In this document: positions 431 to 4,580 of the stretch, one piece after another
Position numbering within the stretch: position 1 is the stretch's first letter
Layout: every line of letters starts with the position of its first letter
Assembly (NCBI GenBank): GCA_009776715.1
Contig: WRNF01000178.1
Location: 1-5,170, forward strand
Direction: 5' to 3'
Source: Treponema sp.
Lineage (GTDB): Bacteria; Spirochaetota; Spirochaetia; Treponematales; Breznakiellaceae
DNA: 5,170 bases
Notes under the pieces: model-generated
What the model was told of the DNA's origin: nothing
The model's input: the letters and a program-made list of their open reading frames with translations, nothing else
The model's database searches: none
Program-made: the position numbers and the translations under genes

Positions 431-626
431 CGCTTCGCTGCGAACCATCTACAAGGTAACTTTTATGAAATTAAAGAAAAGCCCACGGATTAGCACAGAT
501 TTTCCACGGATTATCACGGATTAATCAGAATTAATTAAAAATCCGTGTAAATCCTTTTAATCCGTGAAAATCCGTGGCTTTTGCATATATGGTTTAGCGA
601 GAGGCCTAAATGAAGTTAGAGGTAAG
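431..626. repeat. Composite dispersed repeat, copy 1, with CACGGATT inverted-repeat core
   Basis: The core at about 477-584 is a long imperfect inverted repeat. Its left arm has four CACGGATT-like units (starting at 484, 494, 505 and 515), and its right arm has the complementary ATCCGTG-like units (542, 552, 561, 571). Unit spacing is 9-11 bases, about one DNA turn. Both flanks are also shared with the second copy at 2466-2667: on the left GCTGCGAACCA and GGTAACTTTT, and on the right TTAGCGAGAGGCC followed by AAATGAAGTTA. The distance from the GCNGCGAACC motif to the core is 47 bases in both copies, so this is one module and not a chance hairpin. It lies between the rnz stop (637-635) and the lipoprotein promoter. 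In rnz mRNA the core would fold into a long hairpin that could stop transcription or protect the 3' end. The family is unnamed to me; a non-autonomous, MITE- or REP-like element is an inference. Confidence 0.85.
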
Positions 627-634
627 TAAATTCC

Positions 635-1564
635 TTAATCAATATATTCAATGGGGAAAACCCCTCTGTCGCGGGAAAGCGCCGTGTTGGAAAAAATCCG
701 GGAGGCTTCTTTTTGCAGTTGTTTCAGGTCATAGTCCGAATACCGTGGGCTGTAATGAATAAGGGCCATTTTTTTTATGCCTCCGGCTGCGGCGGCAATG
801 CCGGCAGCTTCTGCCGCGGTCATGTGCTTTTTGCCATGGGCATCTTCGGCAAGGGCCTGTTCGAACATTCCTTCGCAGACAAACAGATCGGAACCGGCAA
901 CTTCGGCTGCTATTGAATCAACAGCAAGGCTGTCGGTAACAAACGAAAATTTCCTGCCGCTGCGGGGAGGCCCAAGCACTTCGCTCGAACGCACCTGCCG
1001 CCCATCGGCTGCCTGAACCGCAGTTCCGGCCTGCAATTGCGCCCACAGCGGCCCGCGCGGAACGCCCAGAGCCTCGGCTTTTTCCGGGTGAAATTCTCCG
1101 GGACGAAGGTATTCTTCCAGCGTGTAACCGAAACAGGGCTTGGTATGATGCAGCGGGAAACAGCGTATGTGGAATCCCTCTCCCTGGTACACAATGCCCG
1201 GCTCGGTTATTTCTTTTACAATTATTTCATAATTAATGAACATGTCCAGAACCCGCCGGTTTGTTTCGACATATTCGCCGATGCGCGGCGGTCCGATAAT
1301 GTACAGTGGATCGTCCCTGTCTACCTGCGAGGAAAGCATTAAAAGGCCGGGTATGCCGGTAACGTGATCCGCATGGGTGTGGCTTACCAAAATGACCGAT
1401 ATTTTTTTCCAGCGCAGGTTTAATTTCCGCAGGGCAACCTGAGTTCCCTCGCCGCAGTCAAACAGAAAAAGCTCGCCTTCCCGCCGCAGCAGCACCGATG
1501 TTAAATGCCTGTTTGGCAGGGGCATCATCCCCCCGCTGCCAAGTATAAATGCTTCAAGATTCAT
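635..1564 (-). CDS. rnz: Ribonuclease Z (tRNA 3' endonuclease)
   Basis: A 309-residue protein of the metallo-beta-lactamase fold, the usual length for bacterial short-form RNase Z, which cuts the 3' trailer from precursor tRNAs lacking an encoded CCA. The zinc-binding histidine motif SHTHADH is at 61-67 (H62, H64, D66, H67). Further expected ligands are H140 (FPLHHTKPCFGY), D211 (FVTDS) and H270 (IHYSPRY), and H247 in KKHMTAAEA fits the catalytic-helper histidine. DCGEGTQ is at 36-42. The tRNA-gripping arm is present around 150-203, including PRGPLW and GPPRSGRKF. Two family motifs differ from Bacillus and E. coli: the PxKxRN loop reads PLPNRH (15-20), and the HEAT motif reads CEGM (230-233), as I recall from clostridial and spirochetal members. 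The start is the ATG at 1564-1562; the ribosome site is weak (GGA 13 bases upstream), but the protein begins as the family does. It is divergent from nadE, and the repeat copy begins nine bases past its stop. Confidence 0.95.
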   Translation of the reverse strand: MNLEAFILGSGGMMPLPNRHLTSVLLRREGELFLFDCGEGTQVALRKLNLRWKKISVILVSHTHADHVTGIPGLLMLSSQVDRDDPLYIIGPPRIGEYVETNRRVLDMFINYEIIVKEITEPGIVYQGEGFHIRCFPLHHTKPCFGYTLEEYLRPGEFHPEKAEALGVPRGPLWAQLQAGTAVQAADGRQVRSSEVLGPPRSGRKFSFVTDSLAVDSIAAEVAGSDLFVCEGMFEQALAEDAHGKKHMTAAEAAGIAAAAGGIKKMALIHYSPRYSDYDLKQLQKEASRIFSNTALSRDRGVFPIEYID

Positions 1565-1575
1565 GTTTCGTTATA

Positions 1576-1604
1576 TTTCCAGTATTGCAATAGAATAGTA
1601 TACT
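1576..1604 (+). promoter_or_regulatory. Candidate nadE promoter
   Basis: TTTCCA (1576-1581), 17 bases, then TATACT (1599-1604): four of six matches at -35 and five of six at -10. The -10 lies in the perfect 8-bp palindrome AGTATACT (1597-1604), so the same bases also read as TATACT on the other strand. That makes a shared, two-way promoter core with rnz plausible. The transcript would have a leader of about 20 bases. Confidence 0.45.
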
Positions 1605-1620
1605 TTAATAACATAAGCAA
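1592..1620 (-). promoter_or_regulatory. Candidate rnz promoter, overlapping the nadE promoter
   Basis: On the minus strand TTGCTT (1620-1615) is separated by 17 bases from TATTCT (1597-1592). It overlaps the plus-strand nadE -10, so the two polymerases would compete for one stretch of DNA. An alternative minus-strand -10 is TATACT from the palindrome at 1597-1604, but it has no good -35. Only about 30 bases of leader would precede the rnz ATG. Confidence 0.4.
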
Positions 1621-1621
1621 T

Positions 1622-1627
1622 GGGGGA
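1622..1627 (+). promoter_or_regulatory. Ribosome binding site that fixes the nadE start
   Basis: GGGGGA at 1622-1627 stands four bases before the ATG at 1632. An in-frame ATG at 1620 overlaps this purine run and has no ribosome site of its own, so the four-residue extension MGEN is probably not translated. Confidence 0.7.
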
Positions 1628-1631
1628 AAAT

Positions 1632-2408
1632 ATGTTTGATGCTGCAAAAACAAAAGAGCAGATAATTCAATGGATAAAAGATTATTTTAATGATAACCAG
1701 CCGGATACGCCGTATCCAAAGGATACGCCGAATCCAGGGGATACGCAGGGCCTTTTCGCAGTAATTGGCATCAGCGGCGGCAAGGACAGCACCATAACCG
1801 CCGCCTTGTGCGCTCAAGCCCTTGGCGCGGATAGGGTTTTTGGCGTGTTAATGCCCTGCGGGGAACAATGGGATTTATCCGTCTGCCATGACGTTGTGCA
1901 ATTTTTGGGAATTCAATATTGTGTTATTGATATTAAAGAAATTACGGATGCCTTTTCCGGGACAATTGCAAACAGCGGGTTATTAATGAACAGGCAGGCG
2001 GCAATAAATGTGCCTGCCAGAATAAGAATGGCGGTGTTATACGCTGTTTCGGCCATTGTAAAGGGGAGGGTGGCAAATACCTGCAACCTCAGCGAAAACT
2101 GGGTCGGCTATTCAACCAAATTCGGCGACAGCGCCGGCGATTTTAGCCCTCTGTCGCAGTTCACTGTTACCGAGCTGAAGGCCCTTGGCAGGGAACTGGG
2201 CTTGCCGCCGCAGTTTATCGACAAAACTCCCGAAGACGGCCTTAGCGGCCTGACCGATGAAGAAAACCTGGGATTCAGCTATGCAACTTTAGACAAATAT
2301 ATCCGCAGCGGCCTCTGCGAAGACATGGCAGTCAAAGAAAAAATCGACCGCTTGCATAAGACCGGCCTGCACAAGATCAATGCAATGCCTTGTTTTAACA
2401 GACTCTAA
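1632..2408 (+). CDS. nadE: NH3-dependent NAD+ synthetase
   Basis: A 258-residue N-type ATP pyrophosphatase that makes NAD from deamido-NAD, ATP and ammonia, the last step of NAD synthesis, in the cytoplasm. There is no N-terminal nitrilase domain, so it is the ammonia-using short form. The pyrophosphate loop is SGGKDST at 48-54, after the strand FAVIG. Other family landmarks follow in order: GVLMPCG (71-77), VPARIRMAVLYA (128-139), NTCNLSE then GYSTKFGDSAGDFSPL (159-174), ELKALGRELGLP (181-192) and KTPEDGLSGLTDEENLGFSY (198-217). The C-terminus ends in HKINAMPCFNRL. The ATG at 1632 is preferred over the one at 1620 because of GGGGGA at 1622-1627. The oddity is residues 25-40 (DTPYPK, DTPNPG, DTQG), a Pro-rich insert made by an 18-bp tandem repeat between the first helix and the strand leading to the ATP loop, where most relatives have only a few residues. 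The reading frame is otherwise intact. Confidence 0.95.
   Translation: MFDAAKTKEQIIQWIKDYFNDNQPDTPYPKDTPNPGDTQGLFAVIGISGGKDSTITAALCAQALGADRVFGVLMPCGEQWDLSVCHDVVQFLGIQYCVIDIKEITDAFSGTIANSGLLMNRQAAINVPARIRMAVLYAVSAIVKGRVANTCNLSENWVGYSTKFGDSAGDFSPLSQFTVTELKALGRELGLPPQFIDKTPEDGLSGLTDEENLGFSYATLDKYIRSGLCEDMAVKEKIDRLHKTGLHKINAMPCFNRL
1703..1750. repeat. 18-bp near-palindromic tandem repeat inside nadE
   Basis: Units start at 1703, 1721 and 1739, each beginning GGATACGC. The first two are full 18-mers (GGATACGCCGTATCCAAA, then a copy with three changes) and the third is cut short. The first 15 bases of unit one form an almost perfect palindrome, GGATACG-C-CGTATCC. Because 18 is a multiple of three, frame is kept and the protein gains DTPYPK, DTPNPG and DTQG. 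It behaves like a small in-frame palindromic insert, similar in principle to the palindromic elements found inside Rickettsia genes. Confidence 0.8.
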
Positions 2409-2420
2409 CTAAAGCCCCCT

Positions 2421-2461
2421 CGCCTGCCTGTCTGCCTGCACAGGCGGGCTCAAGCAGGCAG
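2421..2461. repeat. GC-rich CTGCCTG hairpin after nadE
   Basis: The sequence from 2430 to 2449 folds on itself (GTCTGCCTG against CAGGCGGGC, with G-U pairs and a very small loop). CTGCCTG occurs at 2424-2430 and 2432-2438 and pairs with CAGGCAG at 2455-2461, giving an alternative larger stem. It begins 12 bases after the nadE stop, but no T-run follows, so it is not a standard intrinsic terminator. It could end or protect the nadE mRNA together with the repeat core that comes next. Confidence 0.55.
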
Positions 2462-2667
2462 CCCCGCAGCGAACCAACTCTTTGGTAACTTTTGAAGCTA
2501 TAGATAAAAAGCCACGGATTTACACAGATTTACACGGATTATTTTAAAATTTTAATTCTTAAAATCCGTGAAAATCCGTTTAATCCGTGGAAATCCGTAA
2601 AATCCGTGAAAATCCGTGGCTATTGATTATATGCCTTAGCGAGAGGCCAAATGAAGTTACAGACAAG
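2462..2667. repeat. Composite dispersed repeat, copy 2
   Basis: This is the same module and orientation as 431-626. The left flank is GCAGCGAACCA with GGTAACTTTT, the core is a CACGGATT/AATCCGTG inverted repeat at about 2509-2621, and the right flank is TTAGCGAGAGGCC with AAATGAAGTTA. The arms are unequal: three CACRGATT units on the left, but six ATCCGT units on the right (T of TCCGT at 2565, 2575, 2584, 2594, 2603, 2613), against four and four in copy 1. Units have therefore been gained or lost. Outer short inverted repeats GTAACTT (2485-2491) and AAGTTAC (2654-2660) bracket it. The left flank also contains ACCAA-CTCT-TTGGT, a perfect small hairpin that copy 1 keeps poorly. It lies between the convergent nadE and MCP genes and ends about five bases from the MCP stop codon. 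Confidence 0.85.
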
Positions 2668-2671
2668 CCCC

Positions 2672-4534
2672 CTATACTTCAAAACTGTCAACTATCCTTT
2701 TTATTTTTTCAACTACCGAGTTTGAATTTCCTGCAAGATTAGAAACTGCCTTGGCTTCAGTGTTGATGTTATGAATTTCATTGGAGATATTTACAATAGC
2801 CGATGAAATGCCGCTTGACTGATTTTGCAGTAAATTTACTTCGCTTAACATGGAGTTGCTGCCGTTCTTCATTTCCTTGGAGCCGGTTTCTACTTCGGCA
2901 GAAATATCATTCATTCGTTTTAGCGCATCCAAAACCTGATTTGCGCCTTGTTTCTGTTCATTAATGGCATTGTTTACTTCAATAACAAGGTTTTCAGTTT
3001 CACTTACCCTCATGCTTACAGCGCCAAAAGCCGAAACCGATGATTGCGCGCCTTTAACAATTCCGTCAATTGTTACGCTGATTTCTTTTAACTCATTGTG
3101 AATTTTTTTTGATTCCGCAGTGGCAGTCTCTGCAAGCTTCCTAATTTCGTCTGCAACAACAGAAAATCCTCTTCCTGCATCTCCGGCATGGGCAGCTTCA
3201 ATTGCAGCGTTCATGGCAAGAAGGTTTGTCTGGGAAGAAATAGTTGCAATAATGCGGTTTGCCGCCTGCAATGCATTTGACTGCTCAACAATTTTTTCTA
3301 TGCGCCGGGAACTTTCGTTTTGAATGGTAAGGCCTTCGTTAGCCGCGCTATTTACTGTTTTAAAATGTTCAGCCATTTTTCCAATTACATTTCCAATAGA
3401 CACAATATTATTCACCATTTCTTCGACCGCTGCTGATGCCTGCCCCATACTGTCTGCCTGAATAATTATTGAATTGTTAAGCGATTCAATATTTTGAGTA
3501 ATTTCATGGACTGCAGCCGAAGCCTGATTAACGCTTTGCAGTTGCCCATTGGTTCCTTCCTGCACATTAACAATCGCAGTAGAGATTTTTTCAATAGAGG
3601 TATACATCCCCTGTGCATTGCCGTCAAGATTTGCGCTTGTTGAAGACAATTCCTGCTGAGTGGTTTTTATTTCTCTCATGCCTTCGGCAATATTTTCACA
3701 AAAACTGTTAATCATTCCTGCTGTTGAACCCAATTCATCCACCGATAAAATGCTTATCCGGCGTTTTAAATCTTTTTTGCCCGCTGAAAGATTTTCAAGC
3801 TGGACAATAACGGAGTTAAACAGTTTTGATGAATTTCTTTTAATATAAATTGCAATTGCAAGCAGAAAAATAATGTACCCGCCGGAAACAAAATTTATTA
3901 TATACCATATTGAACTGTCAAACATGGAAGGATTAAGCCCCCCCTTACTAAGCGATAGCATAACGAATGAATAAGTTATTACCATTGAAATAATGCTCAT
4001 TGCAAAGGGTATGATGCATGCTTTAAGGCTTTGCCTGCTTTCGCGCAAATTTTTTGGAAATACCGTTATGTTTAGATCCCCCAGCGTCCGGGTTACCAGG
4101 CCTTCGCCTACATTATAGACAAGAATGCCGGCAGCCATGCCGACAGCAAGGCATCCGCCATAAAGGAATTGACGGAATTCAGGCAGAAGCCCCAAAAAAT
4201 CTCCCATAAAAAAAACCACCGGTATAAGAAATACCGCCTGCAAAACGATAATATAAGCAATGGATTTTATGGGCAGCGCGCCGATTTTTTTCAGGAATTT
4301 GAAAAACCGCTCATCTTCCATATTTTCAATTTTATAGGAAAAAAGCGGCGCATTTATTCCTAAAAGCACGGAAATTGCCAGCACGTATATTAACGCTGGA
4401 ATAATAAAACGCTGCAGCACAATTTGAACGGGCATTATTCCCGATCCAAAAAAATACAAAACTAAAAAATTCCCCACAACAGTAATAACTGCTGAGCCAA
4501 TAATAATCAATAAAAAAGTAGCTCTTTTGTTCAT
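2672..4534 (-). CDS. Methyl-accepting chemotaxis protein with six-helix membrane domain
   Basis: A 620-residue inner-membrane chemoreceptor passing signals to the CheA/CheW array. Six hydrophobic segments fall at about 5-29, 42-60, 92-110, 122-142, 172-195 and 211-231, joined by short loops, so there is no classic periplasmic ligand domain; sensing within the membrane or in short loops is inferred. A HAMP-like linker follows at about 232-285, with the typical DELG (266-269). The rest is a long coiled coil, and the signalling tip at about 428-470 contains [35 protein letters not shown] and the usual hairpin glycines. AAVEEM (368-373) resembles a methylation site. The C-terminus ends in DSFEV, without a CheR-docking pentapeptide. 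The ATG at 4534-4532 is chosen because GGAAGGA stands three bases before it; the frame extends to an ATG at 4546 and a TTG at 4564, neither with a ribosome site. No che genes are adjacent, so this is an orphan receptor. Stimulus unknown. Confidence 0.95.
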
Positions 4535-4580
4535 GTTTCCTTCCATAAAAATGAGTTGAATCAATTAAATTTTAGCCTTT

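Follow-up and report, generated by a model that had tools for sequence, protein, structure and literature searches.

Two composite repeat modules in a Treponema contig, probable gene-less relatives of a small mobile element that carries a GxxExxY gene

We examined a 5,170-nucleotide stretch of a Treponema sp. assembly (contig WRNF01000178.1; hereafter "the window") that contains two composite repeat modules, at 437-626 and 2466-2667, with a common order of parts, a common orientation and common internal distances. We consider these modules to be, more probably than not, two gene-less copies of a small mobile element whose gene encodes a GxxExxY protein (PF13366, which corresponds to TIGR04256 'GxxExxY' and has a predicted PD-(D/E)XK nuclease fold), comparable with miniature inverted-repeat transposable elements (MITEs) or repetitive extragenic palindromes (REPs). 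A full element would measure ∼400-540 bp and comprise an outer flank (in some lineages), an array of ∼8-bp units repeated every 9-10 bp (CACGGATT in what we propose to call class ATT), a gene for a GxxExxY product of ∼115-140 amino acids, an inverted array and the other flank, and gene-less copies would retain the arrays, with any flanks, round a short loop. Judging by the open reading frames (ORFs) of the window, the GxxExxY gene is absent from both copies, and in each copy an arm of CACGGATT units (F) followed by an arm of AATCCGTG units (R), in 9-10 bp steps, reproduces the layout of class ATT. The genome from which the window comes presumably has, or once had, a class-ATT gene.

The left outer flanks of the two copies lie on the plus strand at 437-483 (GCTGCGAACCA...GGTAACTTTT...) and 2466-2512 (GCAGCGAACCA...GGTAACTTTT...), match one another and stand at the same distance from the core; both open with the motif GC(T/A)GCGAACCA, which starts at 437 and 2466. 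Taking exact terminal units as limits, we placed the cores at 484-576 (93 bp) and 2513-2618 (106 bp), neither with an assigned strand. The first has F units at 484, 494 (CACAGATT), 505 and 515, a loop, and R units at 540, ∼550 (degenerate), 559 and 569; the second has three F units, an AT-rich loop and six R units. Since the cores are unequal in unit number (four F and ∼four R against three F and six R), units have been gained or lost while the flanks were retained. The right outer flanks, also on the plus strand, occupy 594-626 (TTAGCGAGAGGCCTAAATGAAGTTAGAG..) and 2636-2667 (TTAGCGAGAGGCCAAATGAAGTTACAG..). Similarity between the copies scored 17 for the left flanks (shuffled mean -8.8, sd 4.3) and 29 for the right flanks (shuffled mean -7.7, sd 3.6), values that none of 2000 shuffles reached in either case. 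The two copies and the shared order and orientation of their parts had been described in a sequence-only reading of the window and were borne out, as was the identical 47 bp from the left motif to the first CACGGATT (at 484 and 2513); the interval from the last AATCCGTG to TTAGCGAG is indeed equal in the two copies, at 17 bp in place of the 24 bp given there. From the end of GGTAACTTTT to the core there are 19 bp in both. By inspection the window cores end in GCC(C)ACGG..CCGTGGC, and those of relatives often in GTCCACGG..CCGTGGAC. The modules fold strongly as RNA (z = -4.87 and -3.68), and the window had no match in Rfam at the gathering threshold.

The nearest match to the nadE gene of the window (66% identity; locus L010) was found in a metagenome-assembled genome, Treponema sp. 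isolate Nt197P3bin89, presumably of termite-gut origin from its code, and we used the 195 genomes of that relative's family, Treponemataceae, for comparison. A pattern of two R units side by side (AATCCGTGNNAATCCGTG, with one mismatch tolerated) was present in 66 of the 195 genomes, with a maximum of 179 matches in one, whereas its reversed-letter control was present in four. Across 16 array-rich genomes we counted 182 F-loop-R pattern matches, some of them overlapping, against 9 R-loop-F. The one-turn phasing claimed from the window is real: in 31 hairpins the start-to-start steps of units within arms were mostly 10 bp (63) or 9 bp (25), with a single step of 11 bp and 17 wider gaps of 18-39 bp, and binding of a protein to phased units is plausible. 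Opposed unit positions were complementary in 819 of 904 cases over 46 hairpins, but opposed positions in 2-bp spacers in only 8 of 56, compared with 38% in shuffles (1 of 5000 shuffles as low). Because the spacers pair below chance, the arms are not retained as one unbroken stem, and the 8-bp units are the conserved object. The mispairing looks as though a perfect palindrome were avoided.

Like cores also occur within outer repeats that are specific to a genome, so that the modules are, as had been suggested, defined units and more than plain palindromes. Several of 13 loci examined in genome G127 carry hairpins in units of ∼200 bp with ends CTAGGG..CCCTAG, the hairpins of loci L045 and L053 have TGTCAACAAGTTAAG ends (TGTCAACAAGTTAAG..CTTAACTTGTTGACA) with a variant in L056, and TTGAYCC/GGRTCAA lies outside the arms of 5 of 57 GxxExxY genes, all of class AAG (a raw count with no chance control). 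The flanks in the window fit a further lineage-specific outer part of this composite layout. At three G127 loci (L150, L152 and L156) a 17-bp palindrome, GCGAACCNNNGGTTCGA, stands between units within hairpin arms, an element nested in an element; it opens with the seven letters GCGAACC of the left flank in the window. A different arrangement was seen in an IMG/VR contig (L001, 2123-8535), where 29 AATCCGTG/AATCTGTG units in a single orientation are scattered round genes over 6.4 kb.

The idea that GxxExxY genes lie in such hairpins was our starting assumption and was tested here. Matches to PF13366 were also found in 66 of the 195 genomes, a set different from the 66 with the core pattern. 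We collected 57 long matches from Treponemataceae and the 30 best-scoring genes from Bacteroidota, and many of the 57 proved to be bracketed by unit arrays, the upstream one F and the downstream one R. The unit varied with the protein group, being CACGGATT in one and CACGAAC, CACGGAGT, CGCAGAG, CACAAAGG or CACGAAGG in others. Class-ATT genes of the comparison family were those at L096, L098, L100, L102, L106, L110 and L121. A motif-free test, in which the inverted match between 200 bp upstream and 200 bp downstream was compared with outward-displaced windows, placed 36 of 53 Treponemataceae genes above the 95% point set by 41 displaced windows (Mann-Whitney U test, p = 4e-11); of the 30 best-scoring genes from Bacteroidota, 24 exceeded every one of 30 displaced controls (p = 1e-9). 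When 300-bp windows were compared with letter shuffles, 31 of the 53 Treponemataceae genes passed. By unit count over all 87 genes, the orientation was F-gene-R in 47 and R-gene-F in 3, the other 37 being one-sided, same-sense or unclear.

Arrays frame GxxExxY genes in several phyla. We took named cases from eight plasmid records, in which the layouts of Persicobacter, Prevotella and Gemmatirosa were equivocal. Inverted arrays stand on both sides of the gene in B. finegoldii and Bernardetia, and plasmid pTS1 of Treponema saccharophilum has a single CACGGATT unit on each side; the AATCCGTG-type units that flank the gene of a Fusobacteria bacterium on either side run in the same direction, and Sphingomonas has an array upstream only. 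Two minor observations concern individual loci: L100 and L160 (T. saccharophilum pTS1) share the gene end that precedes the element (..GYEIKL stop), and at L067/L121 (G177:C99) a class-ATT gene lies between two hairpins, not within one. Phages were considered as carriers and rejected, since there was no GxxExxY match among 50,697 phage records at E 1e-5 and six loci were found in IMG/VR.

The class of unit follows the tree of the proteins. On a tree of 94 genes, 73 of them labelled by script, unit class changed 5 times, whereas shuffling gave 23.2 changes and none of 200 shuffles was as low, and on a tree of the family alone (47 of 57 rows labelled, some by eye) it changed 8 times compared with 25.9; on the latter, classes ATT (7 rows) and ACn (15 rows) each fall on one side of a branch.

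Homology between gene-bearing loci is confined to the gene and its arms. Among Treponemataceae, 64 pairs of loci (not independent of one another) align at 75% identity or more over at least 300 bp (lengths 306-542 bp), and in 52 of these the alignment stops although at least 150 bp of further sequence is available on all four sides. Two loci of genome G070 (L117 and L132) share 91% identity across 540 bp, although their surroundings are unrelated; these copies begin with AACTTGA(T/C)CC and end with GGGTCAAG. In B. finegoldii a GxxExxY element, with little beyond arms and gene, occupies the 478 bp between radA and the next gene; at the 30 best radA loci of Bacteroidales no GxxExxY gene was found within 1.5 kb (0 of 30). 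The next gene is the same at 17 of these loci, and the 12 that were inspected have gaps of 5-93 bp, counting the stop codon. The element thus lies between genes that are adjacent in relatives. These comparisons support the view that gene plus arms behave as a mobile unit. The mobility that the sequence-only reading had proposed for the modules accordingly finds backing in their gene-bearing kin, through the element-wide alignments and the radA insertion, and would extend to the gene-less copies in the window by kinship.

The predicted fold is that of a nuclease. An AlphaFold model of one GxxExxY protein (P0001; predicted local distance difference test score 96) matched, in the PDB, SSO0001 (E 2.6e-4), which we take to be a Cas4, a DinG entry (8.1e-4) and the alkaline exonuclease LHK-Exo (6.6e-3), whereas a sequence search of solved structures with GxxExxY gave chance-level matches only. 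All 87 aligned genes have the D, E and K expected of the active site; as these were the best-scoring matches, decayed copies are under-represented among them. On this model GxxExxY is a PD-(D/E)XK nuclease-fold protein with conserved catalytic residues. In the mechanism that we propose, the protein would recognise the phased units, either along a single face of the double helix or, once a hairpin is extruded, as its 8-bp stem modules, and would cut at or near the arrays; through the break and its repair by the host the element would be copied or moved to an intergenic site, and gene-less copies might be mobilised in trans. The nuclease would then be the mover of the hairpins.

Array number and gene content are in partial agreement with this proposal. 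Genomes with an ATT-clade gene (n = 7) had a median of 11 ATT-array matches compared with 0 (p = 1.6e-4), an enrichment that is partly circular because the arms, which entered the count, had also served to recognise class ATT in the first place; there was no such excess with the ACn clade (p = 0.51), the GLLE clade (p = 0.19) or Y1_Tnp (p = 0.28). A number of results weigh against our interpretation, beginning with a mild rise of ATT arrays with any PF13366 match (p = 0.024). Arrays of class ACn (CACGAAC) were enriched with genes of the ACn (p = 0.002), GLLE (p = 0.0005) and ATT clades (p = 0.009); since they follow several clades, the link between array and gene is not cleanly class-specific. 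On the wider tree class ATT alone accounts for 4 changes, which implies repeated gain or loss of this class, and unit and protein are thus not locked together. Twelve of the 57 Treponemataceae genes have an array on neither side by unit count, and Y1_Tnp loci, for which 3 of 15 passed the shuffle threshold used above, made a poor control. There was no PF13366 match at E 0.001 in G127, G130, G170, G152 or G133, draft assemblies that are five of the top ten genomes by number of CACGGATT arrays; incomplete assembly, loss after amplification or another mobilising enzyme could each be responsible. The GxxExxY gene therefore accounts for the hairpins in part.

Further points on the same side concern the flanks and the sites of insertion. 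With up to 3 mismatches allowed in its 24 fixed letters, the right flank was found in 0 of the 195 family genomes; exact right flank plus core had no match in the genome contig collection, the right flank had none in IMG/VR, and the left flank had none in IMG/VR, the one collection searched with it. Inverted similarity between left and right flanks is weak at best, with 247 of 2000 shuffles as high for copy 1 and 27 of 2000 for copy 2. In three close Bacteroidota relatives (G253, G362 and G299) the element occupies one common site, and is therefore inherited and not now moving, and our search for empty sites at the nucleotide level among close Bacteroidota relatives found elements at the same site in all groups compared. 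Inspection by eye of radA and of the element boundaries revealed no target-site duplication, though the sites compared have diverged. Apart from these results, we noted that genome G142 (∼2.1 Mb) has 293 CACGAAC-array matches and no PF13366 match.

Some of these results would also be expected if the outer flanks were the ends of an ordinary MITE moved by the transposase of an unseen insertion sequence (IS), with the CACGGATT hairpin as cargo or insulator and GxxExxY as a passenger. The occurrence of like cores within different outer repeats and the array-rich genomes without the gene both favour this explanation, which we regard as rather unlikely, given that the inner arms are the part most often common to gene-bearing elements and the part that tracks the protein tree, and that the B. 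finegoldii insert consists of so little else. We think it quite improbable that the modules are static structural sites, retained as transcription terminators, as hairpins at mRNA ends or for protein binding, that have spread by duplication with no enzyme of their own. Such sites would suit the strong folds and the intergenic position of the hairpins, of which 1 in 36 (in the longer loci) lies inside an ORF of at least 90 amino acids, as well as the median distance of 55 bp to the 3' ends of neighbours (n = 26) compared with 172 bp to 5' ends (n = 22), a difference without a significance test; 24 hairpins with a neighbour on each side lie between 16 tandem, 5 convergent and 3 divergent ORF pairs. 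The mispaired spacers speak against retention of an unbroken RNA stem, and the framing of one protein family in several phyla is likewise at odds with static sites.

The third alternative is a REPtron, in which a Y1 tyrosine transposase (REP-associated tyrosine transposase, RAYT) would move the hairpins as REPs; it had been raised as a search for a RAYT partner, and we judge it highly improbable. The hairpins are extragenic palindromes in high copy in some genomes, and Y1_Tnp is present in 119 of the 195 genomes, but core number did not track its presence (Mann-Whitney U test p = 0.28, Fisher's exact test p = 0.53), the array-rich genomes G170, G152, G147, G121 and G133 had no Y1_Tnp match, an array was near 1 of 20 Y1_Tnp loci, and by inspection the core ends of the window and its relatives lack a GTAG tag. 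We rejected the Y1 partner because there was no link between Y1_Tnp and arrays.

Returning to the reading of the modules as gene-less GxxExxY elements, several known systems offer partial parallels. MITEs are gene-less derivatives that share ends with a gene-bearing element, which is the likeness to the modules; here a known IS enzyme is lacking, target duplications were not seen and the conserved part is the internal arrays, not the ends, the inner arms of the window being inverted and its outer flanks weakly so at most. Rpn recombination-promoting nucleases are likewise members of the PD-(D/E)XK group, and we know of no phased arrays flanking them. They form a different Pfam family (YhgA-like, PF04754, not PF13366) and, according to PMC5350276, are transposase-like proteins linked to DNA mobilisation. 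REP/RAYT systems (REPtrons, TIRtrons), as PMC3733652 presents them, have short extragenic palindromes in high copy, a gene-bearing version with inverted repeats on each side and a proposed dedicated enzyme; that paper also reports no obvious correlation of transposase genes with repeat families. The candidate enzyme here has a PD-(D/E)XK nuclease fold whereas RAYT is an HUH tyrosine transposase, the repeats are arrays of 8-bp units in 9-10 bp steps with mismatched spacers, and no GTAG or CGTC tag was seen. By analogy, the modules appear to work like REP/RAYT systems but are not REPs when judged by the GTAG tag and a link to RAYT. Rickettsia palindromic elements, a further parallel, are often found within genes. 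Together with CGTC repeats they are, according to PMC3733652, palindromic repeats with no recognised dedicated transposase; theirs is a CGTC tag, whereas here the arrays are mostly intergenic and come with a candidate enzyme.

GxxExxY proteins are very common and their function is not known (at least 7991 of 7999 scored candidates listed; PF13366 in 100 of 198 Bacteroidota genomes), and the link with arrays gives them a testable substrate, while natural matched and mismatched pairs of unit and protein make specificity directly testable. The link could also explain a class of intergenic repeats. For neither the association of arrays with GxxExxY nor the unit strings was a relevant description found in the open-licence part of PubMed Central, whose coverage stops short of subscription journals and bioRxiv, and this kind of element is apparently widespread and undescribed. 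Tentatively, and at somewhat short of an even chance, we propose that a major class of prokaryotic mobile elements has gone unrecognised and that its enzymes are the GxxExxY proteins; in this class a stand-alone PD-(D/E)XK nuclease would use helically phased arrays as recognition ends, unit and protein would co-diverge across phyla, and large families of gene-less hairpins would be moved in trans.

Both modules in the window are intergenic, and their right end motifs lie near the stop codons of minus-strand genes. The end motif of copy 1 is 16 bp from the stop codon of a gene at 635-1564 for a metallo-beta-lactamase-fold protein (PF12706, PF00753), ribonuclease Z-like by inferred name, and the end motif of copy 2 is 12 bp from that of a methyl-accepting chemotaxis protein gene at 2672-4564 (PF00015). 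The NAD synthase gene, nadE (PF02540), occupies 1620-2408 on the plus strand, with copy 2 beyond its 3' end. Immediately upstream of copy 2, at 2421-2461, we noted a G+C-rich inverted repeat (CTGCCTGCACAGGCGGGC..AAGCAGGCAG). Within nadE, near the N-terminus, a tandem, partly palindromic repeat of GGATACGCCGTATCC type at 1703-1750 is in frame and encodes an added proline/threonine-rich stretch, resembling an in-gene repeat insertion.

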